From NCBI GenBank assembly GCA_017654935.2, contig CM065713.1:18290835-18354834 (forward strand): DNA of 64,000 nt, read 5' to 3'. A program made the translations under genes and the position numbers. Shown here one piece after another: positions 10,611 through 39,549 of this stretch (the stretch's first letter is position 1; each line of letters starts with the position of its first letter). A model generated the notes under the pieces. That model saw only the letters and a list, made by a program, of their open reading frames with translations, did not search any database and was not told where the DNA came from. Origin of the DNA: Phymorhynchus buccinoides. Taxonomy: Eukaryota > Mollusca > Gastropoda > Neogastropoda > Raphitomidae.

Positions 10611-10849
10611 TCCCCTAACCCCTCTCCCCGCGTCCTCTCTTCTCGTCCATATCCTCTCCTCCTCCCCCTCTATCTGTCTCCCCACCACCACACACCTTTC
10701 CCCCTCGATCCTCCATTCCTGTCACCCCTGCGTCACCGATGCCGGCAAATTTGGAGCTTGTCGTCGGAGAATTTGTATCTGTTGGAACTCCGACTCCCCA
10801 CTCCGCATCAGTCCTTTCCACGACCTCCAGATAGCTACCCGACCGTGGG

Positions 10850-11115
10850 CCAACTTGGGCCGACGTCGGCCTGTCGGGAAATGGTCGGCTATGGTTGGCA
10901 GTATGGTGGCTAATGGTCGGATTGCCGACCGTCGGATATACGATCAAATGCCGACGTCGAAAATCCGGGGATTCATGGTCGGATCACCGACGGTCGACAA
11001 TCCGATCATCATAACCAACGTCGAAATACCGGCGGTTCACCGTCGGATTGCCGACATCGGAAATCCGACCATTTGCCGACGTCGAAGTCATGGCGTATTT
11101 CCGACCACTTACCGA
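10850..11115. repeat. Cluster of GCCGACGTCGG-type palindromic words
   Basis: The self-complementary core CGACGTCG and relatives (GGTCGGATTGCCGAC, CCGACCATTTGCCGACGTCG) recur every 20-40 bases. The same family is seen at 21,000-21,200 and in the mirror positions 26,930-27,120 and 36,950-37,240. It is a dispersed repeat with internal symmetrical words; the family is not identified. Confidence 0.6.
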
Positions 11116-11194
11116 CATTTTATGTGTGTGATTTTAGGATTATCTCAGGCATTCACAACAGCAAGACAATGATTCTCAACATACTTTATTGCAG

Positions 11195-11325
11195 ACAGTG
11201 GCGTAGGAACAACCGGGGGTGGGGCAGGGGGGCTGCCCCCCTCTGGCTCAGAGGAGGGGGGGGAGACCCCCTGTCTTCAGGGCCCTCCCCCCCCCCCCCC
11301 CCAAAATTCGAGCAAGCCAGCAAGC

Positions 11326-11356
<31 letters not shown>

Positions 11357-11410
11357 TAATTTAAAACCTAAATAGCTTGAATTATAATGACACAGTTGCA
11401 TTGTTTTCAA
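11195..11410. repeat. GTGGCGTAGGAAC-headed repeat with G and C runs and a GA tail
   Basis: Begins CAGTGGCGTAGGAACAACCG, then GGGGTGGGGCAGGGGGGCTG, a run of about 16 C and a (GA)n tract. The mirror copy is at about 36,700-36,895. GTGGCGTAGGAAC-type openings are common at the edges of interspersed repeats in invertebrates; no transposase is present. Confidence 0.5.
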
Positions 11411-12545
11411 ATTGCTATGAGCCCTCTACTTCCTTCCAGAATGCTGAGGTATTGCAATTTCTTTTAGCTTCTTTGCTGTTGCTTTGTTTCTGTCCTCACT
11501 GTACCCTGAAAACCACTGCAGAAAATCTCCTCAAAAGTTGTAGATAGTCTATCAGTGACATAGAAAAACGGGGAGAGGGGTGGCTGTCCCCCTTCTCCTG
11601 GTACATAGGAGGGGAGTGGGGGGGGCAGACATGCTCCCCCCACAATGAAGCAGAGAGACAGTAAGAGAGAGCGGGGGGATTCAAAGGCTCCATTTGTTCA
11701 TACAATAATTTACACTGATTTTTTTAAATTCTGATATTAAAATTATGGCTGTTCTTAAATGTATAAGTACGAGACCTAACAAATACTGTCCCCTTATCCA
11801 TATCTTCTGCCCCCCCCCTTTCCACGCCCGCCCCCCTCTCTCCCCCCGCCCCCCTCCAACCCATACTGGAGCCAGCATGGTCAACATACGTGACTGTGGT
11901 CCCTAAAAGAGAAAATACGAAATGCCCCCTGTGACTTTTTGTAACTCATAATAGTAATTGTCTCCTTATGTAGATCTAGAAGTCGTGATTAGTCAGACAG
12001 GACATGCACTGATCCACACGTTTTGTCACCATATTTGACAGCAGCATGGCTCCCTTTGATTTCCAGTATCTGATGTGTCCAATGTATCATGAAATATTGT
12101 CTGAGCTAGACCTAACCGATATAATGTTGATTCCAGTAATGATGTGTCGCAATGTATCCATGAAATATTGCCTCCTGGCTAAACCTACAATGGTCGATTG
12201 GAGGTATAATCGAGGTAATCGAAGTAGTACAGTTGCACTTATAATTGTGAGTAGGTTTGTTCGTTTATCCCCTTGCGCTTTTCCTAAAATCCAATCACTT
12301 CCACACCCTTGAAGACAAAGCTTACAGATGCTACGAATGTGATACGACCCTGAAATAAGTTTTTAATATCATTTTAGTTACTAGGACTTGTAACATAACG
12401 GCTAGTCCATAGACCTTGTCGTTTTTTGGCATACTGCCTATCGGGTTAAAATTCCTAGCTCGCTATACTATAAGTATAACAGTATAAGACTGACTATTTG
12501 CGTCATTTTGCGACATTGAGCATGAACGAGAAATTTCACTTTTTT
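11411..12545. other. Non-coding, with one copy of the 74-88-bp unit and a degenerate 70-bp duplication
   Basis: 11,770-11,935 holds a single copy of the unit that is present five times in the other arm (35,840-36,240). 12,062-12,200 contains two diverged tandem copies of about 68-70 bases (TGATGTGTC-CAATGTATC-ATGAAATATTG in both). No gene supported. Confidence 0.45.
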
Positions 12546-12551
12546 CTAGGA

Positions 12552-12574
12552 TTAGGGTTAGGGTTAGGGTTAGG
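12552..12574. repeat. Short interstitial TTAGGG array
   Basis: Just under four tandem TTAGGG units, the animal telomere repeat. Too short to be a telomere and surrounded by ordinary sequence. I do not see it in the mirror arm. Confidence 0.85.
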
Positions 12575-13298
12575 TAAATGGTTAAAGTACAGAACAAGTG
12601 AAATTTGTGGTTGTCGCAAAATACACTCTCATAGTAGCGAGCTATGAATGTTTAAGATCCTATGAATGTTAACCCTACACTGCCTGCCCCCCCCTCCCCT
12701 CCCCAGGCTTCAAAACGTTCCCACGCCACTTATGTCTCACATTAAGTCTCTATTTATCAGCAGGTGCTGGTCATATCACATTACACACAAATAAACTCAC
12801 CAATTAAACAATTACCTGAGTGATGTCCCTTGTCATAGCACACCTAGCTTAGGCCTGACAACAGTGATGCGAGCAGCCCCACAGCTTCGAACATGAATAC
12901 TTGCATTCAAAAACAGAAAAAAAAAAAAAAAATTATGACAGTAGCAAAAAAAAACAAAAACACACAAAAAAAAAAAAAAAAAAAAAAAAAGAAAAACCTG
13001 AAAAAAAAGTAGTAAATCATGGCTTTTTCCTTATAGTATCAGTCAAATCTGTTTTTGCCGCAGTTCATCTCCTTAATGCGATCGAATATGTCATGAGAAT
13101 AAACGCGACCGAAGACACAATTATAGATCTTAATCTGGAACATGACGCGCTGATATATCTAATGTATCCAGGTCAATGTACGTTAGACCGTCGAGTCTGT
13201 ATGTGCTAAAAGTAAAAAAATAAAAATCAGCTCGACCAATTAATTTTTTACTACATGACATAATGATACGAATACGGTGATTAATTCATCGCAAAAAC
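12575..13298. other. No gene seen; A-rich runs
   Basis: Includes long A tracts at 12,918-12,992. The 102-codon ORF crossing them is lysine-rich from poly-A and not credible. Confidence 0.45.
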
Positions 13299-13735
13299 CT
13301 GAGTGTACGATATACCTTGAGTATGTAAAATAAACCTGAGTGTAGCGATATACCTTGAGTATGTCAAAATAAACCCTGAGTGTACGATATACCTTGAGTA
13401 TGTCAAAATAAGTTTCTGAGTGTACGATATACCTTGAATATGCAAAAATAACCCTGAGTGTAGCGATCAGCTCCGAGTATGTCAGGATAAACCCTCAGTG
13501 TACGATATACCTTGACTATGTCAAACGTAAACCCCTCCCCTGTACGATATACTGGCTGAGTATGACAAAATAAACCCTGAGTGTACGATATACTTTGTGT
13601 CTTTGTCAATAACCTGAGTGTACAATATACCTTGAGTATGTTCATTCATAGACCCTGAGTGTACGATATACCTTGAGTATGGTTAAATAAAACAATGAGT
13701 GTACGATATACCTTGTAGTATGTCAAAAACGTAAA
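13299..13735. repeat. About 40-bp tandem repeat, roughly 11 copies
   Basis: Unit approximated by CCTGAGTGTACGATATACC then TTGAGTATGTCAAAATAAA. Copies start near 13,299, 13,335, 13,375, 13,416 and onward with small indels. GTACGATATAC is partly self-complementary. Absent from the mirror arm as far as I can see. Confidence 0.8.
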
Positions 13736-13889
13736 AATAAACTATCCACAAAGATGGGCCTTTTAGCCTTACGGCTATATTACTTTGTCCCTATTTCCTA
13801 ATCCTAAAAAACGCATATAATTCACAAAGTCAAAAGTTTCTGAACGGGCTGCCCTATATGAGCCTAAAGAATTAGGCCTGTTTTGATTT

Positions 13890-14485
13890 GTGGAAGTGCT
13901 TATCCACACGACAGTCGTGCCCATAAGCTTTTCCTTCTGTTTTCCTTATTCCCACGACTGTCGTGCCGATAGTGGAAAGGGGCTGTGGACATTATGGGCA
14001 ATACCGTTGCGCATGGGCAAAAGACTTCTTTCCCATTTTTAGCTTCGTTTTTCACCGGAAATGGAAAGTAGCGTCTCTGTAGCCTGCATTCTTATAGAGC
14101 CGCTGGCGGCTATTTAATGCCACGGCCTTTAAAAAACTCAGCAAAGGACAAAAACGGTCAAGAAAATAGGCCTACCGGAAATGGTCATGATAACGGAAGC
14201 CAAAACATTTTTTTTAAAATGGACAGCTGCAGGTATTAAACATCTTTCGTGGCGATAAGGAGAATACTGGCCCGTTTCGTGGCGATACTGTTTTTTTTGC
14301 AACGGGCCCGTTTCCATTATCCCCACGACTGTGCACTGGCCATAAGGTTTTACATGTACTCCCCACGACTGAGAGAGAGCCATAGAGAGTTTTTCACCCG
14401 TTTTCTTTATCCCCAGAGACTGTCGTGGCCATAAGTTTTTTCACCCGTTTTCATTATCCCGGCACGACTGTCGTGCACACATCTA
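13890..14485. repeat. Degenerate minisatellite with palindromic CACGACTGTCGTG core
   Basis: Five or six variants of TTTTCATTATCCCCACGACTG-TCGTGGCCATAAG are spread over about 600 bases, some close together (14,300-14,480) and some separated by other sequence. Each full copy contains the symmetrical core CACGACTGTCGTG. No ORF of note. Confidence 0.65.
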
Positions 14486-15640
14486 CACCCACGTATATGT
14501 AGTCAAAGCATACACGCGCACGTCTAAAAACAATGCGTCATAATATCACACATTTATGAACATTTAAAAAGAAGACTCAATAAATAACCAATTCATAAAC
14601 AGCAAATAAACACGTTTTCAAGACACACGGTTCGGTTTGGCTACATCGAGACTGTAGGCTACTACAAGATGTAGGCCCTATGCCTCTGTACTAGCCTAGT
14701 ACTGTAGTTCTCGTCCGATTCAATTCAACAGTCACACAGTCAACAGGTATGGCCTTTTGTTCAGTCAGCCATTATATAGTAGGTACTTCTATCTCAGAAA
14801 CACGACCCTTTCTTCAAATCCAGGTACAGAATCACATGAATTGCATAGGCATTTAAGGACCTATCACAGTTTCTCAATATAGAGCCCTTACAAAAATTGC
14901 TTTGGCGGCTGGCCATGTCAATGTCTCCAAAGGATACATCGAAGTGCTCAAGCACCGGAATCACCTTTTGGGGGTGCAACCGGAGATGACATGCAACCCC
15001 TACAAAAATGTTTATTTCAACCAAGCCTCGCCTACCCTAACTAATACCAGCACACACACGGGACAGGAAGCATATATTGAACAAAAAATTCCATTGTTTA
15101 CCTGGACACCAGCAGAAGGAACAAAGTGTGCCGGGATTTCAATGGTAAGCCATGGTAGGCTTATGCTGTGTCACCACCACTGCGTGCGAATCAAAGCAAT
15201 CGTTCTCATTTCAAGTGGCAAGCAGAGCAGACGACACTTTTTGGGGTGTCACAACACATGCCGCCTACTACATCTAGGCACATCGCAAATCGGGGATAAA
15301 TTTTGTTTTACGGGAGAAAATTATAGATCCTCCCGGTCTAAGCCATATGCATGCATTTCTTTTTTGATAAAGTTACATACACCAACTACGTGGGAAAAAG
15401 CAATCATGTTTTATTTTAATAAAGATTATATATTATTAAAGAAAGAGTTTGTTGGGTTTTTTTTGTGCCATGGCTCGACATAGCTTGACCCAAGATTTGA
15501 ACTAGCTTCGCCTAGTTTAAATGATGCACATATTTATTTTAATGTTTATAAAAATTATGATAAAAATTTCTTTTCTACTGAGCATATTTGATTAAAATTT
15601 CAAGGACCACCATTTAAAACAGAATCATTACAATAGTATA
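14486..15640. other. Poorly resolved part of inverted repeat 1, no credible gene
   Basis: A 193-codon plus-strand ORF (14,902-15,483) has no recognisable domain and no counterpart in the mirror arm. About 14,815-14,930 aligns to the reverse complement of about 33,060-33,190 only at low identity (shared ATTTTTGTAAGGG, GCCTATGCAATTCAT, TCTGTACCTG). Confidence 0.45.
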
Positions 15641-15654
15641 TAAAAATCGTTGAA

Positions 15655-15905
15655 GAGTCTTCGGCCAGCCAATCTGGGGCCAGCGGTCTATTTACAGGTG
15701 GCAAAGGGTTATTTTCAGAAAAAAGTTTTCATCGGCTAGCCAATATTAAACCAGCTGTCAACAAGTGCCGTTGTCCAATGATTAACTTTGTAAAACATTC
15801 ATCATAGGCTGTCGCATCGATTTCCCAGGGAACCGATACTGGGTGTCTAAGGGTTAGTTAAAAATACAAGTGACATCGGCTGTCGGACCTTAGTTAAAAT
15901 TTAAG
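15655..15905. repeat. Degenerate version of the 69-bp GGCTAGCC repeat
   Basis: Words such as GGTGGCAAAGGGTTA, CATCGGCTAGCCAA and TTAAACCAGCTGTC appear in the same order as in the cleaner array at 32,090-32,385 (opposite strand), but with many substitutions and indels. Confidence 0.55.
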
Positions 15906-16247
15906 TCAAGTGGGTGGCAACATCCCCAAATGTCTCAAAAAGGGCCGGATTCAGGAACATATGAGGCCGAGTTGACAGCGGTCTGACGACCTTAAAAAAC
16001 CCCATTGGATTATTTATGGCAAAGGCAGAAAGGGAAGATCATCAGGAGGGAGGCACAAAAAAAAAAAAAAGGGAGACCATTTGTGCACAGAAATATAAAA
16101 ACATACACACTTCAATAAATTTCCAAGAATCAGCCCAATAGTGATGTCCAAAATCATTTCATAGAAAAGCCATATCATAATATTACAAATAATGTTATGT
16201 ATTTCTAAATTAAAAACAAAATGGTAAAAATACATGATTGATAGCAT

Positions 16248-19200
16248 TTATATGAAAGAACCGTTAACAGCTGTAATGAAGTGCTTTAGTTTGAGTAATA
16301 TTTTCTTATTTTTTGTAGAGAACAAAGCTTTGAATTTATAAGCATTAGGGCGAGTAAAAAAATACTTAGGGATGTACCTTCTCCTGTCAGTGTCAAAGAA
16401 AGGACAAACAAATAAGTAGTGAAACTCATCTGCCACATCATGTACATTACATTTTTCACAAATTCTTTCATGTCTGGGTGTACCAGTATAACGCAATGTG
16501 TTCACAGGCAAGTTATTATTAGTAGTTCTGAATTTTAACACAGTAATCATATAGCTATATGGCAAGACTAAGTAATATGGGTCAACACAAAAAGAGGTTT
16601 TAAACATTCTGTAGTTTAAATATAATTCGTCATTATCTACATGCATATACCAAGATTGTAAAAAAGTGTCTTTTAAGCATCTTTTCACCTTCTCCTTGAA
16701 TCACAATGGATTTGCATCAAGAAAGGTTTGATTCAACCAAAAGCTACTCAAGCCAGTTTCATTTAGTAGTGTATGAATATATTTGATGTATCTGTTTTCA
16801 TAAACATTTGACTCGCACATTTTCAATAGGCATTTATAAACAATAACTGATAATTTGTCATGTCTGGTGGTCTGTTAAAAGGTTAAACCAAAATGATAGC
16901 ATTCTACATTTAACAGTTACACCAACAAGGAATTTACCCGTTTCCCCAAAAATCACGAGAGAAGGAGTCGACTGACTTACTTTCAGAACCAACTTATAAA
17001 ATCTTAACTGCAGTCTCTGAATAATATCATTCATATCAAAGCCCCAAATTTCACAACCATATGTAAGGATAGGAAGTACAGTTTTATCAAATAGGTCAAT
17101 AGTTAGATCTGCAGGAAGTATCAATAATTTAGCTTTCCTCAACAAAGCAAGCATGGCTCGGGAAGCTCGGTCATAAAGATCACGTTGTGCGACGTTCATT
17201 TTGTTATTATAATTTAATTTTAACACTAAGTACATAAAGTTCTGAACAACCTGTAATTTTTCAGTCGCTATAAGAAAGTCGTGAAAACGTCTAACCTTAC
17301 CCTTATAAAAAATAAGAACTTTACATTTCTGGGCATTTAATTTCAAGTTCCATTTTTGACAATAGCGTTGAATATAGCGTTATCTAAGCCTCTTTGCAAT
17401 CCTACTGGAGTTTTAGAAAATATGACAGTGTCGTCTGCATACAACAAAAATAATATTAACAAAATGTTCGTTCATACCTACACCACCCCTAATATGCTTT
17501 TCTACGCACAAAGAGCTAAAACGACTATTTTAAGACCAGTCATATCTCTAGACATAACATCTTTCATGTCATTCAGGAAAGAGGCACAATAATACGCGCG
17601 ACAGGTTTTCTCACGTGCCTCACTCCATACTTCCGAGCAGAAAAAGTCAGAAAATTCACTGTTAACCGCAACACATGATTTAGCTTGTGAATACATATTT
17701 TGTATTACTTTTAATAACCGACCGCTGATACTATTGTCTATAAGTTTTTGCCACAAAAATGCCCTGTTGACTTTATCGAAAGCTTTTTCATAATCCAGAA
17801 GTGCACCATACAAGCGCTTTTTCTTAAACAACAAAATATTAATCAGCCCGTACAAAGTAAACAAGTGATCCAGTGTTTCTAAACCCAGCTTGTTCCATGC
17901 CAATTAAGTGAAATGTTTCAATGTATACCTTTAAGCGTTTGTTCGGGATACTTGTAAACAGTTTCCCAAAACAAGACAGTATGGTTATACCACGATAGTT
18001 GTTGGGATCTGCAGGGGAACCTTTGTTTTTGAATATTGGCTGTATAACCCCAATTACCCAATCAGTTGGCACTTTACCGGTAATTAATATCAGATTAAAT
18101 AGTTTCACAAAAACACCTAACATTTTCTCTGCTGAAGTTTTAAGGAATTCATTTACTATATTATCAAACCCGCATGCTTTATTGCTCTTTAACTTCTTTA
18201 TGCAAATTAGAACCTCATTTTCAGTAATTAAATTATCTAACAGAGCATTAACATTATCATAATCAACTCCATTGTCAGGGGCATCATCAGCCTCCTCTTC
18301 AACTGTATTCATATTTTTAAACAGCTCAAAAAAGGCCGGACAGCTAGGTTGGCTAGGGTTAGATTTGTTCTTTTCCCCATTAATTATGGCCCAATAATCC
18401 TTGGGTTCTTTAGACTTTGTTTCACGTAATCGTCTTGCCATTTCATGGTTATGTTTTCTCGCCTGTTTCTTTAACTGTCTTTTTATATGACTTGGCAGCA
18501 CGTTCTTTTTCTGCCCTCAAAAACAAACCATTTTTCATTAGTAAACTTCTTCTCCATCGCGAAAAAATTCTACTCTTAATCCTGCATTCCACATTATACC
18601 ATGATTTACCCTTTTTTATCTTTTTAGATGGGCCACGATATTTCTTTCTCTTTTTTTACAATGTGTAGTGTACTTGCACTTTCAATTAGAATATTGTTAA
18701 CTCTACTGACAATCTCATCTACACTGTTTAAAGTAATATTCTCTTAGTTTGAAAGCAGGCCATCGAGCTCGTGCTCTACCAATTTTATTTTTTCAACGTC
18801 TAAATCGTCAACAAAATTTAGTTTTAGATCATTATTCCATTTCACAAAAAACGAATTAGGATCATTGGTACTTGGCTCATGGACTGCTTTCTCTTTCTTA
18901 TCTATGGATTCTGCCACAAAATCTATACTAATTGGACAATGGATATCTGAAAACAATTAATTAAATTCATGCACGCAAAAGTCATCAACACGTTCAAATA
19001 AATCATAAAAATCTACACCATAATCCACAACAGAAGCATTCTTACAAGTCAGTTTACCTTTACCACAATCTCTACCAATTCTGCCGTTAACAATAATAAG
19101 CTGACATGCTCTATAGAAACCTAATAATTCATGCCCCATGCTATTTGTCTGCCTATCTTCAGATGTTCTTTCAAGAAATAAATTATTGACAAACAATTCA

Positions 19201-19930
19201 TTCAGCTGACCAGTTCTAGAATTAAAGTCTCCAAGAAGACAAACACTGCCAATTCCGATTTGCAAAATAGTATCATGTAAATCATTATAAATATTACGGT
19301 TAAAATATGGCAAACCTTCTGGCTCAATGTAGACAGCACAAAACACTACTTTCCTTCCCAAGACAGAGTCATGAAAAGCAAAGAACAACCCACTACGACA
19401 CATCTCAAAATCCACAAAATTATGACTACTTCTTGCTTCATTACTAACGTTATTCTTGAATCATGTTTCCTCAAAAACAGAAATATGCTGAACAAAACAA
19501 TCTCTTATTAGTACTAGGATGCCTCCAGATTCTCTTCTGTATTTATTTCTGTTTTTATAAAATGCCGCGTAACCATCTATTTGTACTGTGTCAACATCTG
19601 CAAGTCTGCTTTCAGAGATGCAGATAACGTCATAGTTATTCAAAAACTCTGACAATTCAGGAAAAGCCTGTTTAGATAGATAACCGCACACATTAAAGTG
19701 CAACACACTTCAGGCATCTAGCTGACCTTTCACTCTCACTGGGGTCATCTTCTTCTCTTTCCTCGTTATGGAAAGTGGGATCGTTTTCTTCCAGCATTCA
19801 CTGTTATTATTGTCAGGGTCGTCATTAGTTCCATCAGCGTCGCAAGTATTGGGGGTGTTGTGGCTATCGGACTGGTTTTGTATTATTCTTTGAGAGTGTC
19901 TTCCTGCTGGTTGTTATTAGTTCAGTAATC
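16248..19930 (-). mobile_element. APE-type LINE, left-arm copy (broken)
   Basis: Minus-strand non-LTR retrotransposon in at least eight frames. From 5' to 3': N/D-rich leader, endonuclease (19,706-18,957; LNVCG-like motif, ICISES, LLGDFNSRTG, SDIHCP), linker, reverse transcriptase (18,501-17,340; NNYRGITILS, LDYEKAFDKVN, and a YADD-encoding segment near 17,430 out of frame with its neighbours), then a C-terminal zinc-knuckle-like domain (16,688-16,248; CEKC...H...C). It mirrors the copy at 28.1-31.8 kb. The canonical DFN of the endonuclease is readable here but frameshifted in the other copy. The LINE clade is not assigned. Not functional as written. Confidence 0.85.
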
Positions 19931-20560
19931 TTTGTTATGATCATCAATCCACCACCATCACCATCACCATCAGTCATACTCATTCATTATCAACATTTAT
20001 GATACCCACTGAAATTATCTATCATCCATCTTTATGACCAACCACCAACATTATAGGTATCATCGTTCATTAACCCACACAGCTAAATTATCATCATCAT
20101 ACTGACACCCCACCACACATTAGTATTCATCGTCATTATCATCGAGGGGGACACACACAAACTCTTATCATCATCACCATTATGACACCCACCCACATTA
20201 TCAACATTCATCCATTATGACCCACTCACCAAAAACATTATTATCATCATCATCATTATGACACCCACCCACATTATCAACATCATCATTATGACTTCCA
20301 CCCACATTAGCATCGTCATCATTGTAACACCTCCCCCCCCCCCACCCCACATTAACAGACATAAAAAGTATGACACCCACCCCAAATTAACCATCATAAT
20401 CATTGTGACATCCAACCAACATTATCAACATTCATCATTATGACAACTCACCCACATTATCAATATCATCATTATGACTTCCACCCACATAATCATCGTC
20501 ATTATTAAACCACCCGGAACAACTTTCTTCATCAGCATGACACCCAAAAGGCGAATTATC
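19931..20560. repeat. ATC/GAT-rich minisatellite, left arm
   Basis: Unit about 30 bases approximated by CATCATTATGACACCCACC-CACATTATCAA on the plus strand. It directly abuts the 5' side of the LINE and mirrors 27,420-28,135. Includes a C run at 20,332-20,343. Confidence 0.85.
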
Positions 20561-20706
20561 TATTCATCTGGTCATTGTCCATCCAAACAATTATTAATAA
20601 CATCATCTCAATCTGAATTTCATTACGTCCAATCAAAAAAAACATTATCCTATGTCATCCACCATTATTATCGCACCAAAAGTACATTATAATCCGTTCA
20701 GTATTA

Positions 20707-20924
20707 GGGGAAGACGGGGTAAAAAGCGCAGGGGAGGGTAAGAAGCCCACCCCAATTAACTAATGAAATAAAGAAAATTTCAGTCAAAAATTTGCCCATG
20801 AGACGAATGCTAAAAATTAACGCTATTCTCATGGGCAAAATTTGACTGAAATTAATTTTGCTTCATTTCATGAGATAATTGGGGTGAGCTTACCCGCCCA
20901 TGCGCTTTTTACCAAGTCTTCCCC
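20707..20924. mobile_element. Foldback MITE, left arm
   Basis: A 218-base element whose two halves are reverse complements almost throughout. Ends read GGGGAAGACGGGG and CCAAGTCTTCCCC, with TA on each side (20,705-20,706 and 20,925-20,926). No coding capacity. The mirror copy at 27,199-27,415 is more symmetrical. Confidence 0.8.
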
Positions 20925-20999
20925 TACGTAACATTATATCATTCTTCACTTTACAACCACCAACATTATCATCGGCAAAGGCTCGGATTCAGGGTGAAT

Positions 21000-21200
21000 G
21001 AACGTCGGCATGCCACCTGAAACTATATCCCATGGTCGGTCAATGACGTCGGGCCGACGTTGGGCCGACGCGTCGCCTCGGCGTGTCGACAGGATGGGCA
21101 CAAACGACAGGTAGCCGACGTCGTGACAGGATGGACACAAACGACAGGTAGCCGACGTCGGCAACCGATGATTTTCCGACGTCGGCATTTGAGCGGTGTG
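21000..21200. repeat. CGACGTCGG-word cluster, left arm
   Basis: Repeated GCCGACGTCGG and ACAAACGACAGGTAGCCGAC phrases, with the ACAGGATGG(G/A)CACAAACGAC block duplicated. ORFs through it (60-126 codons on both strands) are not credible genes. Confidence 0.55.
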
Positions 21201-22160
21201 CTATCTGTGTCCATCATCATCTCAAACAAGGGAGACTTCGTCCTCTTCAGGACCATAAGGATCTGCGACAAACTGGGACGTAAATCTCATCATCTATCCG
21301 CCTCGACGCTCTTTTGCTGTTTCATGACCAATCTCCTGGAACAAAAACTTCCTCTCTCCGCCGGCCTCCGTCAGCGAGCTGATCCTCTCTGCTCTCAAAT
21401 CAAACCTCAAAAACACGGGCACCGTTTTCCCCGTCATTGAAGCTCTTGCTCTCTTTCCCTCCTCGCTATTGCCTTTAGGACCCATGTTCTCAAAACGTTG
21501 TGTGTGTGTGTGTTCTCTTCTTGCTTCATCTATTGTTTTAAAGAAAGATGAATGAATTAACGCGTGTGTGTGTGCGCTTCGATTTGATTATATTCATCAT
21601 ATATATATATATAATTTTAAAAAAACACAACAAAACAACAAGCCTTTCCGTCATGAAAATAAAGAAATTTTCGGCTTTAATTTACCAGTTAATAAAACTG
21701 AAAGCCTTCCTCAGCCATTGAGTCGACCAGGTTAATAAATCAAAAGAGAATGGTTTTCATATATAGGCTTTTAAATAGCCTTTGGCCTGTGCTATTTCCT
21801 TTTAGTTTATAAGGGAAACGCAATTGAAAACATGGGATGTTTTTTGTTTTTGTTATTATTTTTTATATATTTTTTAAAGAGTACAACATACAGCGAAAAC
21901 AAGCAAACTGATCTGCATACTAATTATTACTGAATTCTTATGTTAGCATGGAAGCAATAATCTTCCCAAAAATTATCTATGATTGAAAATGATGTTTTTA
22001 CGTCCTCTCGGTCTGAATAGGACACTTATGGGACATTTGTAAATACAAAGATTGTGGGAACAATTTACTTTGCTGCAATGCCCGGAGGCAGTGCAAACAC
22101 AAGTAAAGTCCCGAGTTTTTAAAATTAATACAGATAGGTGTAGCGGTAACCACACCGTCG
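21201..22160. other. No gene seen
   Basis: Mixed DNA shared with the mirror arm (26,010-26,930). 21,973-22,155 on the minus strand may be the diverged 3' continuation of the RT fragment next to it (CPIS...RPRGRKNIIF), but this is uncertain. Confidence 0.4.
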
Positions 22161-22161
22161 G

Positions 22162-22290
22162 TTAAACCTCAACGCCACGTATTCATTATCTAATTTGTTT
22201 TTAAAACTATTGAATGTTCCTGCGGTTGCAGTATCATTTGGTAGAGAATTCCAATTGTTAATTTCTATAACCCTGTTTGTGAAAAAATGT
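22162..22290 (-). pseudogene. CR1/L2-like RT C-terminal fragment, left arm
   Basis: One minus-strand frame reads FTNRVIEINNWNSLP, then FNSFKNKLDNEY. This W-N-x-L-P ... S-F-K-N-x-L-D pattern is the usual C-terminal end of reverse transcriptases of CR1/L2/jockey-type LINEs. It is a 5'-truncated relic; the catalytic RT motifs are not visible nearby. The mirror copy is at 25,880-26,000. Confidence 0.6.
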
Positions 22291-23150
22291 GCATAAATAT
22301 TAGTAGATTTATATCAAGATTTAGCGCCCGTATGAATACTGTATGTTGGTGTTGTTGCTGTTGTTTAAATGTGCACATTTCTAAGTTGATGTCATGAATT
22401 TTAATGATAATTATTTGGTTGGTATAATTTCGTTTCACACGTTTGATTAATGTTCTTTCAGTTATGTTGCATTTCTGTCATGTTGTTACACCTAATCTGA
22501 ATTCTCTTTTGGGAGATTACAGGTGGAAACCCTCCCTTATAAGGACCCCCTCCCCTTAAAGACCCCCTGATCCGCTCAATGTTTCTCTCTAAAGAAAACG
22601 CCAAGAAATGGACGGGGTGACAGCAAGTCTTTTTTGCAGGAAGCGCGCTAACGGGGCATTATGCTCAGGTTACCCATGGAAATTGGGCGCTAACAAGGTG
22701 CTCATTCTCACCCCTGGATTTTTCTCCACACAGATTTGCCCTCGGTTTCTATACGAGGTTAATTGAATATCATTTACGTATTAATTGTCCTTCGTATACC
22801 AAAACGAGGCTGTGAATGGGAGATCATTTTGATGAATGGCAGACTCTTATCATTTGAGTTATGAAGACTTGTAAATGCTCGTTTTATCAAGCGAGACCAA
22901 AGCGAGATGGAAGCAACAGTGTCGATTTCAATGAGGACCCAAGGTTGGGTTAAAGGGCGAAGTTGGTAGGCCTAACGAAACATTAAGGATAGCAGGAACG
23001 TCCCCCTCCGACAGTCAAAGTACGGTTGATTAAGGATAGGAGGAGGAGAACGAATTGATGGTGACTCAGGCCGAGTTGCGTTTTCCCTGCGTAGCAGCGA
23101 GTACCAGTAACCGGGAGTTGGCTACCCTTCCGAGCGGACATGAAGCCTTA
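22291..23150. other. Non-coding; contains one end of a CAGTGG-type MITE
   Basis: At about 22,522-22,545 the sequence ACAGGTGGAAACCCTCCCTT followed by ATAAGGACC matches the terminal repeat of the intact MITE at 60,151-60,323; the mirror is 25,618-25,655. I could not find the second terminal repeat. The rest shows no gene. Confidence 0.45.
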
Positions 23151-23467
23151 ATTTATTTTCACTTAAAGGAAGGAGAACAAGGGGAGATCTTATAGAAACT
23201 TATAAAATATTCAACAATCATGTGGATTTGTCCTGGAGTAATTTCTTTTCATCTCCTCAATACAATATGACTAGAAACGCCTGTGGGAAAGTTTTTGTTA
23301 AAAGATATAATACTAACATAAGAAAAAATTGTTTTGGTAACAGAATTACTAACATGTGGAACGAATTGCCTACTGACGTAAAATGTGCACCTCATACTAA
23401 TATGTTTAAAAATCGTCTGGATACATTACCAACATTTTTAGAAGTTTTTAGAAGCTATGACGAATAA
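23150..23467 (+). pseudogene. CR1/L2-like RT C-terminal fragment ending at an ACCT array, left arm
   Basis: Encodes RGDLIETYKIFNNHV, then RNACGKVFVKRYNTNIRKNC and FGNRITNMWNELP, ending with NMFKNRLD. R-G-D-L-I-E-T-Y-K and the W-N-E-L-P block are hallmark C-terminal motifs of CR1/L2/jockey-type LINE reverse transcriptases. Only the last 100 or so residues remain. A (ACCT)n array at 23,577-23,603 follows about 110 bases after the stop and may be the LINE 3' tail repeat. The mirror copy is at 24,749-25,141. Confidence 0.75.
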
Positions 23468-23983
23468 TGATTTATGAGGAAAATTTATGCCGCATCAACC
23501 TTGACCAAAAAGATACATTTACCAGAAAAATCATAAAAGATGGGACTGTTTGGAAAAGCTTTACGGCTTGTTTTGTCCCTACCTACCTACCTACCTACCT
23601 ACCATCTTTATTATCTCATTACAGAGAAATTGCAGCCATTAACCTTTTAATAGCGATTTTTATGTTCGGAATGAGCGGCGTGGGAGCAACGCCACTGTAC
23701 GGCCCAGAAGATGGGACAGCAAAAAAAACCCACAAAAACAAAAAAACAAGCATGTGTGGGTTTTTTTCTTCTTCTTCTTCTTCTGTGGTAGTGACCAACT
23801 TCTTCTTCTTCTTCTTCCATTGATCATCCGCCTTCATCCATTTGAAGACCGGATTCTGATTATATAGAACTGAGAAAGGTTCTGCGCATGTTAAGATATA
23901 GTCAATCAGGGTTAATCAGTGTCAACTTCAGTCTTGCACACGCGCGTACGTGTATGGTTGTGCGTGTGCATAGCCTATGTGTT

Positions 23984-23993
23984 TGTGTGTGTG

Positions 23994-24059: not shown

Positions 24060-24061
<2 letters not shown>

Positions 24062-24082
24062 TTGTGCGTGTGTGGGGTTTTT

Positions 24083-24123
24083 GTGCGAGATAAATAAATC
24101 AGAGAGAAAGAGAGGAGAGGTGG

Positions 24124-24175
<52 letters not shown>

Positions 24176-24179
24176 GGGC

Positions 24180-24237
<58 letters not shown>

Positions 24238-24280
24238 CCACCTCTCCTCTCTTTCTCTCCTGATTTATTTATACTCGCAC
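24083..24280. repeat. Small inverted repeat with (CT)n and (GA)n arms
   Basis: GTGCGAGATAAATAAATCAG plus a GA-rich segment and (CT)n on the left is matched in reverse complement by (GA)n and a segment ending TGATTTATTTATACTCGCAC on the right. The loop is about 10 bases (AGGGCTGGAG). It could form a hairpin or a purine/pyrimidine triplex. Confidence 0.85.
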
Positions 24281-24748
24281 AGCAGTGGTTGATCACGATA
24301 AACAGAACAGAATGAACAAGACTAACATTCTTTCATCTGCAGCTGCTGACATGAAGTATGACTAGACTACACTACGCGCGTGTGCAAAAATAGATCTAGA
24401 TCCTGATCTACCTTAACTTTGTAACTGTTAGTATGCACCTAAATGGACTGGTCTGCAAACAAGCACATTTGATTACTACGTCGCGAAGGCATCTTACCTG
24501 AACCCACACCATCCCGTGCATCTGACTGGCTTGGCGTTGGCTGGGCCTACTTGATCTGCACAGCACATTCAAGTAGGCTCAAACTGGAATCTGGATCTTT
24601 CATGGTAGGTAGGTAGGTAGGTAGGTAGGTAGGTAGGGACAAAACAAGCCGTAAAGCTTTTCCAAACAGTCCCATCTTTTATGATTTTTCTGGTAAATGT
24701 ATCTTATTTGGTCAAGGTTGATGCGGCATAAATTTTCCTCATAAATCA

Positions 24749-25141
24749 TTATTCGTCATAGCTTCTAAAAACTTCTAAAAATTTTGGTAATGTATCCAGA
24801 CGATTTTTAAACATATTAGTATGAGGTGCACATTTTACGTCAGTAGGCAATTCGTTCCACATGTTAGTAATTCTGTTACCAAAACAATTTTTTCTTATGT
24901 TAGTATTATATCTTTTAACAAAAACTTTCCCACAGGCGTTTCTAGTCATATTGTATTGAGGAGATGAAAAGAAATTACTCCAGGACAAATCCACATGATT
25001 GTTGAATATTTTATAAGTTTCTATAAGATCTCCCCTTGTTCTCCTTCCTTTAAGTGAAAATAAATTAAGGCATTCATGTCCGACTCGGAAGGGTAGCCAT
25101 ACTCGGTACTGGTACTCGCTGCTATCGCAGGGAAAACGCAA
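24749..25141 (-). pseudogene. CR1/L2-like RT C-terminal fragment, right arm
   Basis: Same relic as 23,150-23,467, here open for 130 codons and extending further upstream (RVGHECLNLFSLKGRRTRGD). Upstream of that the sequence does not give RT catalytic motifs, so it is a truncated LINE end, not a gene. A (GGTA)n array at 24,604-24,637 lies downstream on the same strand. Confidence 0.75.
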
Positions 25142-27120: not shown

Positions 27121-27198
27121 TCATTCACCCTGAATCCGAGCCTTTGCCGATGATAATGTTGGTGGTTGTAAAAGTGACGATGATAATAATGTTACGTA

Positions 27199-27415
27199 GG
27201 GGAAGACGGGGTAAAAAGCGCATGGGCGGGTAAGAAGCCCACCCCAATTATCTCATGAAATGAAAGCAAAATTTCAGTCTCATTTTTGCCCATGAGACGA
27301 GCGTTAATGTCTAGCATTCGTCTCATGGGCAAATTTGACTGAAATTTTCTTTATTTCATGAGATAATTGGGGTGGGCTTCTTACCCGCCCATGCGCTTTT
27401 TACCCCGTCTTCCCC
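27199..27415. mobile_element. Foldback MITE, right arm
   Basis: A 217-base, almost complete hairpin: each half is about 100 bases and the loop is about a dozen bases around 27,309. Ends are GGGGAAGACGGGGTAAAAAG and its reverse complement, flanked by TA (27,197-27,198; 27,416-27,417). No ORF. The TA flanks suggest mobilisation by a Tc1/mariner-like transposase supplied elsewhere. Confidence 0.85.
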
Positions 27416-27419
27416 TAAT

Positions 27420-28135: not shown

Positions 28136-29313
28136 GATAATGATAATAACAACCAGCAGGACAATTCTCATAGAATAATACAAAACCAGTCCGATAGCCA
28201 CAACACCCCCAATATTAGCAACGCTGATGGAAATAATGACAAACCTGACAATAATAACAGTGATGCTGAAGAAAACGATCCCACTTTCCATAACGAGGAA
28301 AGAGAAGAAGATGACCCCAGTGAGGGTGAAAGGTCAGCTAGATGCCTGAAGTGTGTTGCACTTAATGTGTGCGGTTTTCTATCTAAACAGGCTTTTCCTG
28401 AATTTTCAGAGTTTTTGAATAACTATGACGTTATCTGCATCTCTGAAAGCAAACTTGCAGATGTTGACACAGTACAAATAGATGGTTACGCGGCATTTTA
28501 TAAAAACAGAAATAGATACAGAAGAAAATCTGGAGGCATCCTAGTACTAATAAGAGATTGTTTTGTTCAGCATATTACTGTTTTTGAGGAAACACGATTC
28601 AAGAATAACGTTAGTAATGAAGCTAGAAGTAGTTATAAGTTTGTGGATTTTGAGATGTGTCGTAGTGCGTTGTTCTTTGCTTTTCATGACTCTGTTTTGG
28701 GAAAGAAAGTCGTGTTTTGTGCTGTCTACATTGAGCCAGAAGGTTCGCCATATTTTAACCGTAATATTTATAATGATTTACAGGATACTATTTTGCAAAT
28801 CGGAATTGGCAGTGTTTGTCTTCTTGAGACTTTAATTCTAGAACTGGTCAGCTGAATGAATTGTTTGTCAATAATTTATTTCTTGAAAGAACATCTGAAG
28901 ATAGGCAGACAAATAGCATGGGGCATGAATTATTAGGTTTCTGTAGAGCATGTCAGCTTATTATTGTTAATGGCTGAATTGGTAGAGATTGTGGTAAAGG
29001 TAAGCTGACTTGTAAGAATGCTTCTGTTGTGGATTACGGTGTAGTTTCTTATGATTTATTTGAACGTGTTGAGGACTTTTGCGTGCATGAATTTAATGAA
29101 CTGTTTTCAAATATCCATTGTCCAATTAGTATAAATTTTGTGGCAGAATCCATAGATAAGAAAGAGAAAGCAGTCCATGAGCCAAGTACCAATGATCCTA
29201 ATTCGTATTTTGTGAAATGGAATAATGATCTAAAACTAAATTTTGTTGACGATTTAGACGTTGAAAAAATAACATTGGTAGAGCACGAGCTCGATGGCCT
29301 GCTTTCAAACTAA
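28103..29313 (+). pseudogene. LINE endonuclease region, right arm (frameshifted)
   Basis: The endonuclease frame is open from 28,103 with an N/D/E-rich leader and no ATG before 28,367, so the true start is lost or lies before the minisatellite. The EEP/APE-type endonuclease follows: LNVCGFLSKQ, ICISESKLADVDTVQ, GGILVLIRDCF, VYIEPEG. A frameshift near 28,830 breaks the motif that reads LLGDFNSRTG in the left arm, and an in-frame stop at about 28,975 follows. 29,029-29,313 continues with VHEFNELFSNIHCPIS, where the left arm has SDIHCP. In intact elements this enzyme nicks target DNA to prime reverse transcription. Inactive as written. Confidence 0.8.
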
Positions 29314-29396
29314 GAGAATATTACTTTAAACAGTGTAGATGAGATTGTCGGTAGAGTTAACAATATTCTAATTGAAAGTGCAAGTACACTACACAT

Positions 29397-31792
29397 GGTA
29401 AAAAAAGAGAAAGAAATATCGTGGCCCATCTAAAAAGATAAAAAAGGATAAATCATGGTATAATGTGGAATGCAGGATTAAGAGTAGAATTTTTTCGCGA
29501 TGTAGGAGAAGCTTACTAATGAAAAATGATTTGTTTTTGAGGGCAGAAAAAGAACGTGCTGCCAAGTCATATAAAAAGACAGTTAAAAAAACAGGCGAGA
29601 AAACATAACCATGAAATGGCAAGACGATTACGTGAAACAAAGTCTAAAGACCCCAAGGATTATTGGGCCATAATAAATGGGAAAAAGAACAAATCTAACC
29701 CTAGCCAACCTAGCTGTCAGGCCTTTTTTGAGCTGTTTAAAAATATGAATACAGTTGAAGAGGAGGCTGATGATGCCCCTGACAATGGAGTTGATTCTGA
29801 TAATGTTAATGCTCTGTTAGATAATTTAATTACTGAAAATGAGGTTCTAATTTGCATAAAGAAGTTAAAGAGCAATAAAGCATGCGGGTTTGATAATATA
29901 GTAAATGAATTCCTTAAAACTTCAGCAGAGAAAATGTTAGGTGTTTTTGTGAAACTATTTAATCTGATATTAATTACCGGTAAAGTGCCAACTGATTGGG
30001 TAATTGGGGTTATACAGCCAATATTCAAAAACAAAGGTTCCCCTGCAGATCCCAACAACTATCGTGGTATAACCATACTGTCCTGTTTTGGGAAACTGTT
30101 TACAAGTATCCTGAACGAACGCCTAAAGGTATACATTGAAACATTTCACTTAATTGGCATGGAACAAGCTGGGTTTAGAAACACTGGATCACTTGTTTAC
30201 TTTGTACGGGCTGATTAATATTTTGTTGTTTAAGAAAAAGCGCTTGTATCGTGCATTTCTGGATTATGAAAAAGCTTTCGATAAAGTTAATAGGGCATTT
30301 TTTGTGGCAAAAACTTATAGACAAAGGTATCAGCGGTCGGTTATTAAAAGTAATACAAAATATGTATTCACAAGCTAAATCATGTGTTGCGGTTAATAGT
30401 GAATTTTCTGACTTTTTCTGCTCGGAAGTTGGAGTGAGGCAAGGAGAAAACCTGTCGCCTGTATTATTTGCCATGTTCCTGAATGACATGAAAGTTTTTA
30501 TGTCTAGAGATATGACTGGTCTTACCATAGTTGCTAGAGAAGCAGATATATTAGGTATGAACGAACATGAAATTAACATTTTGTTAATACTATTTTTATT
30601 GTTGTATGCAGACGACACTGTCATATTTTCTGAAACTCCAGTAGGATTGCAAAGAGGCTTAGATAATATTCAACGCTATTGTCAAAAATGGAATTTGAAA
30701 TTAAATGCCAAGAAATGTAAAGTTCTTATTTTTTCTAAGGGTAAGGTTAGACGTTTTCCCGACTTTCTTATAGCGACTGAAAAATTAGAGGTTGTTCAGA
30801 ACTTTATGTACTTAGGGTTAAAGTTAAATTATAATAACAAAATGAATGTCGCACAACGTGATCTTTATGACCGAGCTTCCCGAGCCATGTTTGCTTTGTT
30901 GAGGAAAGCTAAATTATTGATACTTCCTGCAGATCTAACTATTGACCTATTTGATAAAACTGTACTTCCTATCCTTACATATGGTTGTGAAATTTGGGGC
31001 TTTGATATGAATGATATTATTCAGAGACTGCAGTTAAGATTTTACAAGTTGGTTCTGAAAATAAGACAGTCGACTCCTTCTCTCATGATTTTTGGGGAAA
31101 CGGGTAAATTCCCTGTTGGTGTAACTGTTAAATGTAGAATGTTATCATTTTGGTTTAACCTTGTAACAAACCACCAGACAGAAAAATTATCAGTTCTTGT
31201 TTATAAATGCCTATTGAAAATGTGCGAGTCAAATGTTTATGAAAACAGATACATCAAATATATTCATACACTACTAAATGAAACTGGCTTGAGTAGTTTT
31301 TGGTTGAATCAAACCTTTCTTGATGCAAATCCATTGTGGTTCAAGGAGAAGGTGAAAAGATGCTTAAAAGACACCTTTTTACAATCTTGGTATATGCATG
31401 TAGATAATGACGAATTATATTTAAACTACAGAATGTTTAAAACGTCTTTTTGTGTTGACCCATATTACTTAGTCTTGCCATATAGCTATATGATTACTGT
31501 GTTAAAATTCAGAACTACTAATAATAACTTGCCTGTGAACACATTGCGTTATACTGGTACACCCAGACATGAAATAATTTGTGAAAAATGTAATGTACAT
31601 GATGTGGCAGATGAGTTTCACTACTTATTTGTTTGTCCTTTCTTTGACACTGACAGGAGAAGGTACTTCCCTAAGTATTTTTGTACTCGCCCTAATGCTT
31701 ATAAATTCAAAGCTTTGTTCTCTACAAAAAATAAGAAAATATTACTCAAACTAAAGCACTTCATTACAGTTGTTAACGGTTCTTTCAGATAA
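29397..31792 (+). pseudogene. LINE reverse transcriptase and C-terminal domain, right arm
   Basis: 29,397-29,590 gives a linker (SWYNVECRIKSRIF). 29,556-30,218 carries the RT N-terminal part (IKKLKSNKACGFDNIVNEFL, PIFKNKGSPADPNNYRGITI). After frameshifts near 30,200 and 30,290, a 513-codon frame (30,251-31,792) holds GVRQGENLSPVLFAMFLNDM, the catalytic YADD (residues 119-122), a long thumb/connection region and a C-terminal CX2C-X9-H-X4-C motif (C444, C447, H457, C462). The enzyme would copy the LINE RNA at the nicked target. Frameshifts make it non-functional as written, although the catalytic block is intact. Confidence 0.85.
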
Positions 31793-32505: not shown

Positions 32506-32532
32506 ATGGATGCAAGCGCACCTGGTGAGTCT

Positions 32533-34049: not shown

Positions 34050-34215
34050 AGGCTTGCCAAACAAAACCTTGGGGGGGCGGGGGGTCCAGGATTGCCCAAA
34101 CAAAAAACTGGGGGTGGAGGGGGTGCAGGATTGCCAACAAACCGGGGGGGGGGGGGGGCAGGATTGCCACAACAAACTGGGGGGGGGGCTGTGGGCTAGA
34201 CAATTGACCAACAAA
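34050..34215. repeat. G-run minisatellite, about four copies
   Basis: Unit of roughly 40-45 bases: CAGGATTGCC(A)ACAAAC followed by a run of 7-17 G. Several G runs close together could form G-quadruplexes. Not seen in the mirror arm. Confidence 0.75.
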
Positions 34216-35840
34216 ACCGGGGGAGACGCCGCCTCAAGGTGGCATGGATAGGTTATAGTTACACGTGTTTGATAATATGTGCTACATAAGCACTTTTATA
34301 ATTGTTATTTTTAAACATAATCAAAAAGAAGCAATAAAAGATGCATGAATGAAAGAAAACATGTTGAACATGTGAAAGGAGACTACCATATCAAAACGAC
34401 CCCATAAAAATACAACCATATTTTTTGGGGGCGGATCAGCCAGTCATGGAAGAGGGGATGAGGGTAGCTCCAAGTGTTCAGTTGGGGTGGGGGGAGGGAT
34501 CTGCCTCCCAGAAGCTTATGATAATTTGAATGTTAAATATATGATGCATATCCAAGGCTTTATTCATAAGCACAACTTAAGCTAAACCTATGGCGCAGGA
34601 CACGACACTAGTTCTCCCTCTCTTTTATTCATATACACGGTTCTGATTTTCTCTCTCTTTTTCTTTTTACATCAATTTTTATTCGCTCGAGTTTAGCACC
34701 AGTGGAACCCCTGTAGCCCCTGTCTCAAACTCCATATGTGATGTTAGTGTTACCCATTGTCCAAAAATGACACGTACACATATATCCACACAACATAGAG
34801 ACAGCTGCCCTATACACCAAAGAACAAAGGAAAGGAAAGGAAACATTTGAACCATCTAAACGTCATATCAGATTGTATCAAGTTTTTGTTTTGGGGATGG
34901 TTGAGCTTAAGAAAAGCCCAAACCATAAAAGAATAAACTTACTAAAATCACTCGTATCTATAAGCAAGAAGTGTACTTACTACTTATATGGCAGGTATTT
35001 CATGCTAAATTGAACACATCATTGTTGGAAATCAAACCAGGCCATGTTATTGTCAAATGTTGTGATACAAAATCAGTTATGATTGATGACACTTGTTCAA
35101 AACAAATAAGTCCCTTATCAATAGTCATCCACCTAATAAACACAAAGCATATACCACATATAATTATCATCCAACTTATATATATAAACTTACAAATAAC
35201 GTGAGTGTAAGTCAGTCTTGTCTGACTAGCCATGACTTCCAGATACATAAGGACTGGCAAATTACTACTTCCCTGGAGGACTGAGCATCCCTAGTCGTTA
35301 AATGTAAAGTCAAAGAATTTCTTGCCCACAAGTATCCCCACTACTCCAGGACAACAGAGATTGATTAGAAATGTCTCGGTATTGGCGGATAGCGTCCCCT
35401 ACAAAGGTCCAAATAATCCTGTGCTGCGCCTTTCGTGTACTAGTAAGAGCAAACGTGCAAATGCATTCGAGTTTCTCTGGGACTTCCAATATAATTCACA
35501 AAAAGATTAACAATTTACCATGATTTACCATCTCAAGATTCAAAATGTAACATAGAACATGGATCAAAGGTAAAACCTACCTTTGAGAACAACGAATAAA
35601 CCAGTGAAACAGGGCTGAACCATGCAGGCCCTCAGCTCTAATGAGTGCTTTCAATTTCAATCACATTAACTCACATTATCATTAGTAACTTAATAAGAAG
35701 TTTGTATTTTGTGTGTATCATCTGTACGTTTTTTCTTCAAGGTCTTTGTGGAAGTGGTGGGATGGTGTAGAACGTAAGGGGAGGGCGCGACAGATCCAGA
35801 ATTGGGAGTGCAACTGATCACCCCCTTTGGTTTGTTTTTA
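34216..35840. other. No gene seen; not alignable to the mirror arm
   Basis: AT-rich DNA with only short overlapping ORFs. I could not align it by eye to the corresponding part of the left arm (about 12,000-14,500), so one arm seems to carry an insertion or replacement here. Confidence 0.4.
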
Positions 35841-36240
35841 ATTGTACAAAAGTCACAGGGGGCATGTGGGGAAAGGGGGGAGGCAGAAGATATGGATAAG
35901 GGGACAGTATTTGTTAATGACAAAAGTCACAGGGTGCATGTGGGGAAACGGGGGAGAGGGGCAGAAGATATGGATAATTGGGGGAGACAGTCCTTTGTTA
36001 ATAATGACAAAAGTCACAGGGTGCATGTGGGGAAGAAAGGGGGAGAGGAAGGACAGAAGATATGGATAAGGGGACAGTATTTGTTAATGACAAAAGTCAC
36101 AGGGTGCATGTGGGGAAAGGGGGTGGGAGGCAGAAGCATATGGGGGAAGGGGACAGTATTTGTTAATGAAAAAGTCACAGGGTGCAGTGTGGCGAAAGGG
36201 GGGAGGCAGAAGATATGGATAAGGGGACAGTTATTTGTTA
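35840..36240. repeat. 74-88-bp tandem repeat, five copies
   Basis: Unit contains AAAGTCACAGGGTGCATGTG, then a G-rich part, AGAAGATATGGATAAGGGGA and CAGTATTTGTTAATGA. GTCACAGGG starts at about 35,851, 35,925, 36,013, 36,096 and 36,173. The left arm has one copy only (11,770-11,935). The 164-codon ORF across it is a by-product. Confidence 0.85.
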
Positions 36241-36949
36241 GGTCTCGTGTACTTATTACATTTAAGAACAGCCATAATTTTAATATCAGAATTTAAAAAA
36301 AATCAGTGTAATTTATTGTAAATGGCACAAAGCCTGAGAGCCTTTGAATCCCCCCGCTCTCTCGTTACTGGTACTCTCCCAGATTTCATTGTGGGTGGGG
36401 GAGCATATGTACTGCCCCCCCCCACACTCCCCTCCATAATGCGGGTACCAGGAGAAGGGGGGACAGCCCACCCCTTTCTCCCCGCCTGTTTTCTTTCTAT
36501 GTCACTGATAGACTATCTTAACAACTTTTGAAGGAGATTTTCTGCAATGGTTTTCCAGGGTGTTGTCGAGGTACAGCAAACCAAACAAAGCAACAGCAAA
36601 GAAGCTAAAAGAAATTGCAATACCTCAGCATTCTGGAAGGAAGTAGAGGGCTCATAGCAATTTGAAAACAATGCAACTGTGTCATTATAATTCAAGCTAT
36701 TTAGGTTTTAAAATTATCTCCTTTCTCTCTCTCTCTCTCTTCTCTTTTGCTTGCTGGCTTGCTCGAATGTTGGGGGGGGGGGGGGGGAGGGCAGAAGACA
36801 TGGTCTCCCCCCCCTCCTCTGAGCCAGAGGGGGCAGCCCCCCTGCCCCACCCCCGGTTGTTCCTACGCCACTGTCTGCAATAAAGTATGTTGAGAATCAT
36901 TGTCTTGCTGTTGTGAATGCCTGAGATAATCCTAAAATCATTCACACAT

Positions 36950-37240
36950 AAAAATGTCGGTTAAGGGTCGGAAATACGCCATGGACTCGACGTCGGCAAA
37001 ATGCGTCGGATTTCGATCGGCAATCCGACGGGAAACCGCCGGTATTCGGACGTTGGTTAGATGTCGGATTGTCGACCCGTTTTTTTTTTTCGGTGATCGA
37101 CATGAATCCACGGATTTTCGACGTCGGCATTTGAGCGATATCCGACGCGTCGGCAATCCGACCATTAGCCACATTACTGCAAACCATAGCCGAAAATTCC
37201 CGACAGGCGACGTCGGCCCAACGTTTGGCCCACGGTCGGT
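36950..37240. repeat. CGACGTCGG-word cluster, right arm end
   Basis: Mirror of 10,850-11,115, with several single-base differences and small indels. It ends about 190 bases before the gap. Confidence 0.55.
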
Positions 37241-37433
37241 GTTGCTATCTGGGGAGGTCGTGGAACATGATGAATGCTGGAGTGGGGAGTCCGGAAGTCC
37301 AAAAGATCAAATTCTCGACGGACACTCCATTGCCGGCATGGTGACGCCAGGGACAGGAATGAGGGATCGAGGGGGAAAGGTGTTGGTGGTGGGGGAGACA
37401 GATAGAGGGGGAGGAGGGAGGGGATATGGACGA

Positions 37434-39540: not shown

Positions 39541-39549
39541 GCAATAGCT

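Follow-up and report, generated by a model that had tools for sequence, protein, structure and literature searches.

The 64,000-nucleotide stretch analyzed here (the window) corresponds to C34:18290835-18354834 of the Phymorhynchus buccinoides genome assembly GCA_017654935.2 (2.12 Gb, 3962 contigs), C34 being the chromosome-sized sequence CM065713.1 of 34.0 Mb. It carries two giant inverted repeats, IR1 and IR2, on either side of a single scaffold gap. In IR1, positions 10643-23603 are mirrored by 37433-24605, far above chance, in BLASTN and global alignments of the window with itself; the very large inverted repeat of the original prediction is thereby borne out. The gap, the only run of N in the window, is exactly 500 N long, which is the gap size that 3D-DNA inserts. 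The right arm of IR1 stops at 37433, the final base ahead of the gap, so that the outer end of the repeat cannot be taken as a natural boundary. Behind the gap, the IR2 match begins at 37936, two bases past the start of the next contig (contig 2). Contig 2 is about 31 kb long, and its right end, where the next 500-N gap follows (C34:18360074-18360573), has no giant inverted repeat.

Results

Extent and Alignment of the IR1 Arms

The IR1 arms align well in their inner part (15626-23603 against 32403-24612: 8019 columns, 91.7%) and in an outer block (10643-11822 against 37433-36194: 1267 columns, 87.1%). Arms of about 12.9 kb had been proposed; the extent holds, but the match is not uniform, about 4 kb per arm being weakly aligned. 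Between 11.8-15.6 kb and 36.2-32.4 kb, a permissive global alignment is poor all along, and a sensitive local search gave a few collinear pieces at 71-80% (e.g., 14509-14628 and 14821-14938) together with off-diagonal pieces and matches into tandem repeats. The left version of this middle block appears noisy, with 847 bp at 14851-15697 against 761 bp in its best listed match (83%), while the right version carries clean tandem arrays (97% and 95%). Two causes are conceivable, poor sequence in both versions or an origin of the two arms from different alleles in this block. Each arm further contains one self-complementary unit of about 220 bp (20705-20926 and 27197-27417) resembling a miniature inverted-repeat transposable element, with a related place at C2:11228564-11228777.

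To the left, IR1 is flanked by a C-rich, strand-skewed array that Tandem Repeats Finder did not report at score 80. No mirror copy of it was found in the window. Its counterpart would begin at the very point where the right arm breaks off, and the array may therefore be the reason why the contig ends at 37433.

Axis and Spacer

The symmetry axis of IR1 lies within a region that had been described as a 1-kb spacer, largely not self-complementary. This description is accurate outside the stem but fails at 24082-24281, the site of the axis, where the sequence is self-complementary at 92.6% over 203 columns. The stem measures about 93 bp with three single-base gaps and ends in (CT)24 and (GA)n around a loop of about 12 nt; no N gap is present at this place. 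Aligned without the stem, the spacer halves are mostly dissimilar, with one collinear match of 21 columns (20 identical, one gap, score 36) that was reached by none of 1000 shuffles (maximum 32). IR1 would return within about 200 bp if the stem-loop were taken as its axis, but 23604-24081 and 24282-24604 match weakly, and a plain alignment puts the arms 1 kb apart. At both apparent edges of the spacer (23603 and 24605) lies the 3′ end of a young long interspersed nuclear element (LINE) fragment of 458 bp with a (TACC)n tail, its 5′ truncation being identical in both arms. Such LINE 3′ ends were found at 98-100% at at least 39 places outside the window among those listed; here and below, counts of genomic copies refer to the places listed, which are the best-scoring candidates only (e.g., 40 scored).

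A SMRTbell adapter sequence matched neither axis, that of IR1 or of IR2, better than shuffled sequence did, its score being reached by 94, 162, 122, and 92 of 300 shuffles in four tests. Two further tests on whole spacers, reached by 3 and 0 of 300 shuffles, gave the same CT/GA-driven score of 38.5 and were not counted as an adapter remnant.

Differences between the Arms

Identity along the arms is bimodal and changes abruptly. In IR1, 66 of 273 fifty-column windows reach at least 98%, where a uniform rate would give 0.005, and 116 fall below 80%, for which 199 would be expected because the mean identity of IR1 is only 75%. The corresponding figures for IR2 are 83 of 190 (0.7 expected) and 41 of 190 (19 expected). 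Perfect runs of up to 288 bp adjoin very poor stretches.

The kind of difference also varies between blocks. The LINE block of IR1 shows 3.0% substitutions and 14 indel events in 3.6 kb; the DIRS-like coding blocks, which lie in IR2, show almost no indels between arms. In the inner block of IR1 outside the LINE (20971-23140), 66 indel events were counted in 2.2 kb, 60 adding bases on the left and 6 on the right, a bias that neutral divergence would not give. Comparison with copies elsewhere points to one arm or the other. The left stretch 22555-23000 (446 bp) matches 36 listed places at 84-90%, mostly 88-89%, and most near-full-length matches span 404-408 bp, whereas the right stretch that holds its counterpart (25100-25617) matches 36 listed places, 35 of them at 98-99% and one at 95%. 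The left arm is hence the deviant one in the inner part. In the outer part, the right arm is deviant, since the left block agrees better with two other places (96%) than with its own right arm (87%). Judged by these comparisons, the differences in the inner and outer blocks consist mostly of arm-private, insertion-rich noise, as in an unpolished long-read consensus, and the pattern along the arms looks like patchy consensus noise rather than duplication age.

Scattered single-base changes between the LINE copies had been read as evidence against two readings of the same molecule. The changes exist, but the argument does not extend to the whole arm, because the substitution-rich block is the LINE and the inner block consists of left-private insertion noise. 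Two simple rules were tried on these data and rejected: the arm on the gap side is the noisier one in IR2 (489 columns) but not in the inner block of IR1, and multi-copy sequence is not always clean, the left stretch 22555-23000 being both multi-copy and noisy. Counted by codon position, arm differences are even in three IR1 LINE segments and show a clear third-position excess in two of six partly overlapping open reading frame segments of IR2 ([7,6,16] and [7,7,25]) but not in the other four; this excess is suggestive of cross-copy polishing and is not relied on here.

Copies of the Arms Elsewhere

Two more copies of the IR1 arm blocks lie on the same chromosome (C34:18639949-18651104 and C34:18706025-18717492), 94-96% identical to the better arm and, among the matches listed, in one orientation only. 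They may represent local duplication or haplotype duplicates. Their matches stop where a dispersed repeat beside the axis begins and so cannot show the sequence beyond it.

In IR2, 37936-42428 matches 56203-51726 at 94.0% and 42429-45381 matches 51441-48449 at 93.0%, and the center, 45752-48061, equals its own reverse complement at 80.9%. The opposite strand is resumed within about 200 bp, across a loop of 78 bp. The right arm has a complete second copy about 170 kb away, over 9451 bases, and contig 2 continues collinearly with that locus in its right flank (98% over 56300-57259 and 97% over 59749-61100, with an unlisted stretch of near-equal length between them). Arm and flank together make contig 2 a duplicate, haplotig-like version of the locus at C34:18.507 Mb. 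One locus is thus assembled twice, as C34:18507112-18521219 and as 46950-61100 of the window (97-99%), which may reflect an unpurged haplotype or a duplicated contig.

This copy is linear: the arm runs through the sequence of the IR2 loop into unrelated DNA, without a mirror arm in the 2.3 kb examined. The IR2 arms differ at 17 of 489 columns, and the linear copy has the right-arm state at 16 of these, the one exception being the junction base, where it follows the left arm; the left, gap-side arm accordingly looks like a noisy second reading of the locus. Visual inspection of the alignment shows a shared GAG at the switch point, although a match of three bases carries little weight. IR2 also contains a DIRS-like retrotransposon (47818-54223) with a reverse transcriptase match (PF00078), a weak tyrosine-recombinase match below the cut-off (PF00589), and inverted terminal repeats (47818-48012 and 54197-54016), which was found at 97-98% at at least 17 other long places among those listed.

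Assembly Context

Inverted repeats were surveyed in about 334 kb around the window and on C33 (34.3 Mb), about 106 kb of which is N, with cut-offs of 400 and 300 columns and E 1e-30 applied to the listings. Only IR1 and IR2 exceeded 1 kb among the inverted repeats listed, each extending to a contig end; the same listings included a few shorter inverted pairs (401-628 columns) distant from gaps. Two of seven contig ends bear a terminal giant inverted repeat, both at this gap, and one of the seven borders a long N run.

Hybrid assemblies of the kind presumed here combine accurate contigs built from short reads with stretches of raw long-read sequence. The genome that we presume to be the source is described as assembled by Platanus and DBG2OLC with PacBio Sequel data, three Racon rounds, and one Pilon round, followed by 3D-DNA scaffolding with 18,751 contigs placed (PMC10638732). 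The features of the locus are collected in Table 1.

Table 1. Positions of the repeat arms, their internal blocks, and the adjoining features in the window.
Feature	Position	Strand	Basis
Degenerate C-rich array in left flank; words resembling TAACTGCCCCC	7500..10578	+	
IR1 left arm	10643..23603	+	Self-alignment, permissive global alignment
Outer block, left arm; 87% to own right arm, 96% to two same-chromosome places	10643..11822	+	
Middle block, left arm; scattered weak matches to 36193-32404	11823..15625	+	
LINE body, left arm; mirror of right-arm LINE, frames more broken	16294..19878	-	Assigned via right-arm LINE
Inner block, left arm; indel bias 60:6	20971..23140	+	Arm alignment
3′ end of 5′-truncated LINE with (TACC)n tail, left arm	23146..23603	+	
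IR1 axis; stem about 93 bp, loop about 12 nt	24082..24281	.	Self-alignment, stem alignment
IR1 right arm, ending at contig end	24605..37433	-	Self-alignment, permissive global alignment
LINE 3′ end, right arm; truncation point as in left arm	24605..25070	-	
LINE body, right arm; RVT_1 (E 1.2e-16), sub-threshold endonuclease match (E 0.0024)	28367..31792	+	Pfam
Scaffold gap, 500 N, between IR1 and IR2	37434..37933	.	
IR2 left arm, gap side; deviant over 489 polarised columns	37936..46871	+	
IR2 loop, 78 bp; continues into unrelated DNA in linear copy	46872..46949	+	
IR2 right arm; whole arm also linear at C34:18507112-18516542 (99%)	46950..56203	-	

Discussion

Going by its sequence relationships, IR2 is best described as a fold-back chimera on a duplicate contig. 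IR1 shares its signs, namely an arm end that is a contig end, a short loop at a simple-repeat axis, and patchy, arm-private noise, and is best read likewise: it is probably an artefact, in which the terminal sequence of an assembly contig is folded back on itself as a palindrome. A molecule or read would have run along the locus, turned at the CT/GA hairpin near 24180, and returned on the complementary strand, and the assembler would have kept the folded read as if it were linear, as far as the contig end at 37433. Both arms would then be a single locus represented twice, their differences being patchy long-read consensus noise, perhaps with cross-copy polishing in repeats. We infer one read or molecule as the cause, which may have turned as a hairpin-ended molecule, by a template switch, or through a missed adapter. 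The repeat is real in the assembly and most likely absent from the chromosome. Of the three options named in the original prediction, i.e., duplication, joined haplotypes, and fold-back error, the last is the best supported, and the argument raised against it was not upheld for the arm as a whole.

Comparable artefacts are known. Fold-back long reads have been documented, one of them with about 2 kb between its segments, and inserts at their junctions were enriched in simple repeats in K562 samples (Heinz, Meyerson and Li 2026, PMC12870357). In these reads, as would be the case here, the two segments map to one locus on opposite strands, and the junctions often have little extra sequence or inserts rich in simple repeats; they are defined there on reads aligned to a reference, however, whereas IR1 and IR2 are known from the assembly alone. 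Palindromes also arise during whole-genome amplification, where more than 85% of chimeras were inverted in one study and 2-21 complementary bases were present at more than 70% of junctions (Lasken and Stockwell 2007, PMC1855051; Warris et al. 2018, PMC6218980). The inverted structure with short complementary junction bases is the likeness, and the 78-nt loop of IR2 with its GAG junction match may fit it; on the other hand, no mention of amplification was found for this genome in the available part of its description.

Several observations weigh against a fold-back origin of IR1. In a genome search, no linear copy crossing the axis of IR1 was found, and the spacer, if pieces of up to about 100 bp are disregarded, occurs at one place only; a linear version exists for IR2, and the reading of IR1 is less secure than that of IR2 for this reason. 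Even for IR2, the linear copy and the right arm may share polishing reads, which would inflate their agreement. The middle 4 kb are too divergent for comfortable one-copy noise, the right version having clean tandem arrays. The noise itself is not consistently placed: the indel bias of the outer block is reversed (30:16 toward the right arm), the outer block of IR2 has none (22:24), and the inner noise of IR1 lies in the arm distant from the gap, opposite to IR2. An adapter remnant was detected at neither axis, and two fold-backs at one gap require two events. The contig end coincides with the edge of the C-rich array, which could break a real palindrome too. Finally, fold-backs made up about 0.55-0.6% of reads from Nanopore genomic DNA and were virtually nil in three PacBio samples (PMC12870357), yet the presumed source genome was read by PacBio Sequel.

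If IR1 were instead a real and young inverted segmental duplication, possibly of one haplotype, its right end would have fallen into the gap and inadequate polishing would have blurred the arms; fold-back priming, either at the CT/GA hairpin or between the inverted LINE 3′ ends, could have generated it. Both arms carry the dispersed repeat and the truncated LINE 3′ end at equal positions, just where the matches of the other copies stop, and so look like sister copies; duplication is common here, given the further copies of the locus at 18.640 and 18.706 Mb, and poor polishing of two near-identical arms would likewise yield patchy noise. We nevertheless consider this explanation unlikely, as the right arm has no flank of its own, the loop is only about 12 nt in a palindrome of 26.8 kb, the neighboring IR2 folds back on a locus with a linear version elsewhere, and the two other arm copies listed share a single orientation. 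As to the flanks, the right arm of IR1 and the left arm of IR2 both stop at the gap, and a unique flank of their own is unseen and could lie in it. Natural palindromes of large size, for instance on the human Y chromosome, likewise have long inverted arms of high identity, but they have unique flanks and usually a real spacer, neither of which is shown at IR1 or IR2. That IR1 is an authentic palindrome of about 27 kb with almost no loop, formed by recent fold-back replication at the CT/GA hairpin and segregating in the animal's population within a cluster of local duplications, is quite improbable.

A join of two haplotypes or local paralogs, head to head via the inverted LINE 3′ ends or the CT/GA hairpin and without any fold-back molecule, would explain why the middle 4 kb differ so strongly between the arms, as a structural allele difference would, and haplotype-like duplicates do adjoin, contig 2 being matched at 97-99% by C34:18.507-18.521 Mb. 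Yet symmetry returns at the axis, with the stem and the 21-column match of the spacer, which a repeat-mediated join does not predict; the axis has no N gap; and the right arm of IR2 is almost the same as the linear copy, only the left arm being deviant. This scenario is accordingly very doubtful. There is next to no chance that each arm is a copy of the same large mobile element, the two insertions facing opposite ways: LINE sequence is indeed present in both arms, and the IR2 arms hold copies of the widespread DIRS-like element, but the listed repeat families match sub-blocks of the arms only, the inner and outer blocks of IR1 occur together at two listed outside places, both on the same chromosome, and the part of the IR2 arm outside the DIRS-like element has one other long match among those listed.

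A fold-back origin of IR1 therefore remains our preferred reading, and it matters beyond this locus, in that, in long-read assemblies, palindromic contig ends inflate gene and repeat counts and mimic inverted duplications. Three signs together offer an inexpensive screen based on the assembly alone: an arm end that coincides with a contig end, bimodal arm identity, and one arm that deviates from other copies. IR1 serves as a worked example of how such repeats can be exposed without reads.

Other Features of the Window

Rfam and tRNA scans of the window gave no matches. Near its right end, a long tandem array of 51-bp and 27-bp units (61160-62797 and 63049-63585) leaves open frames on both strands.

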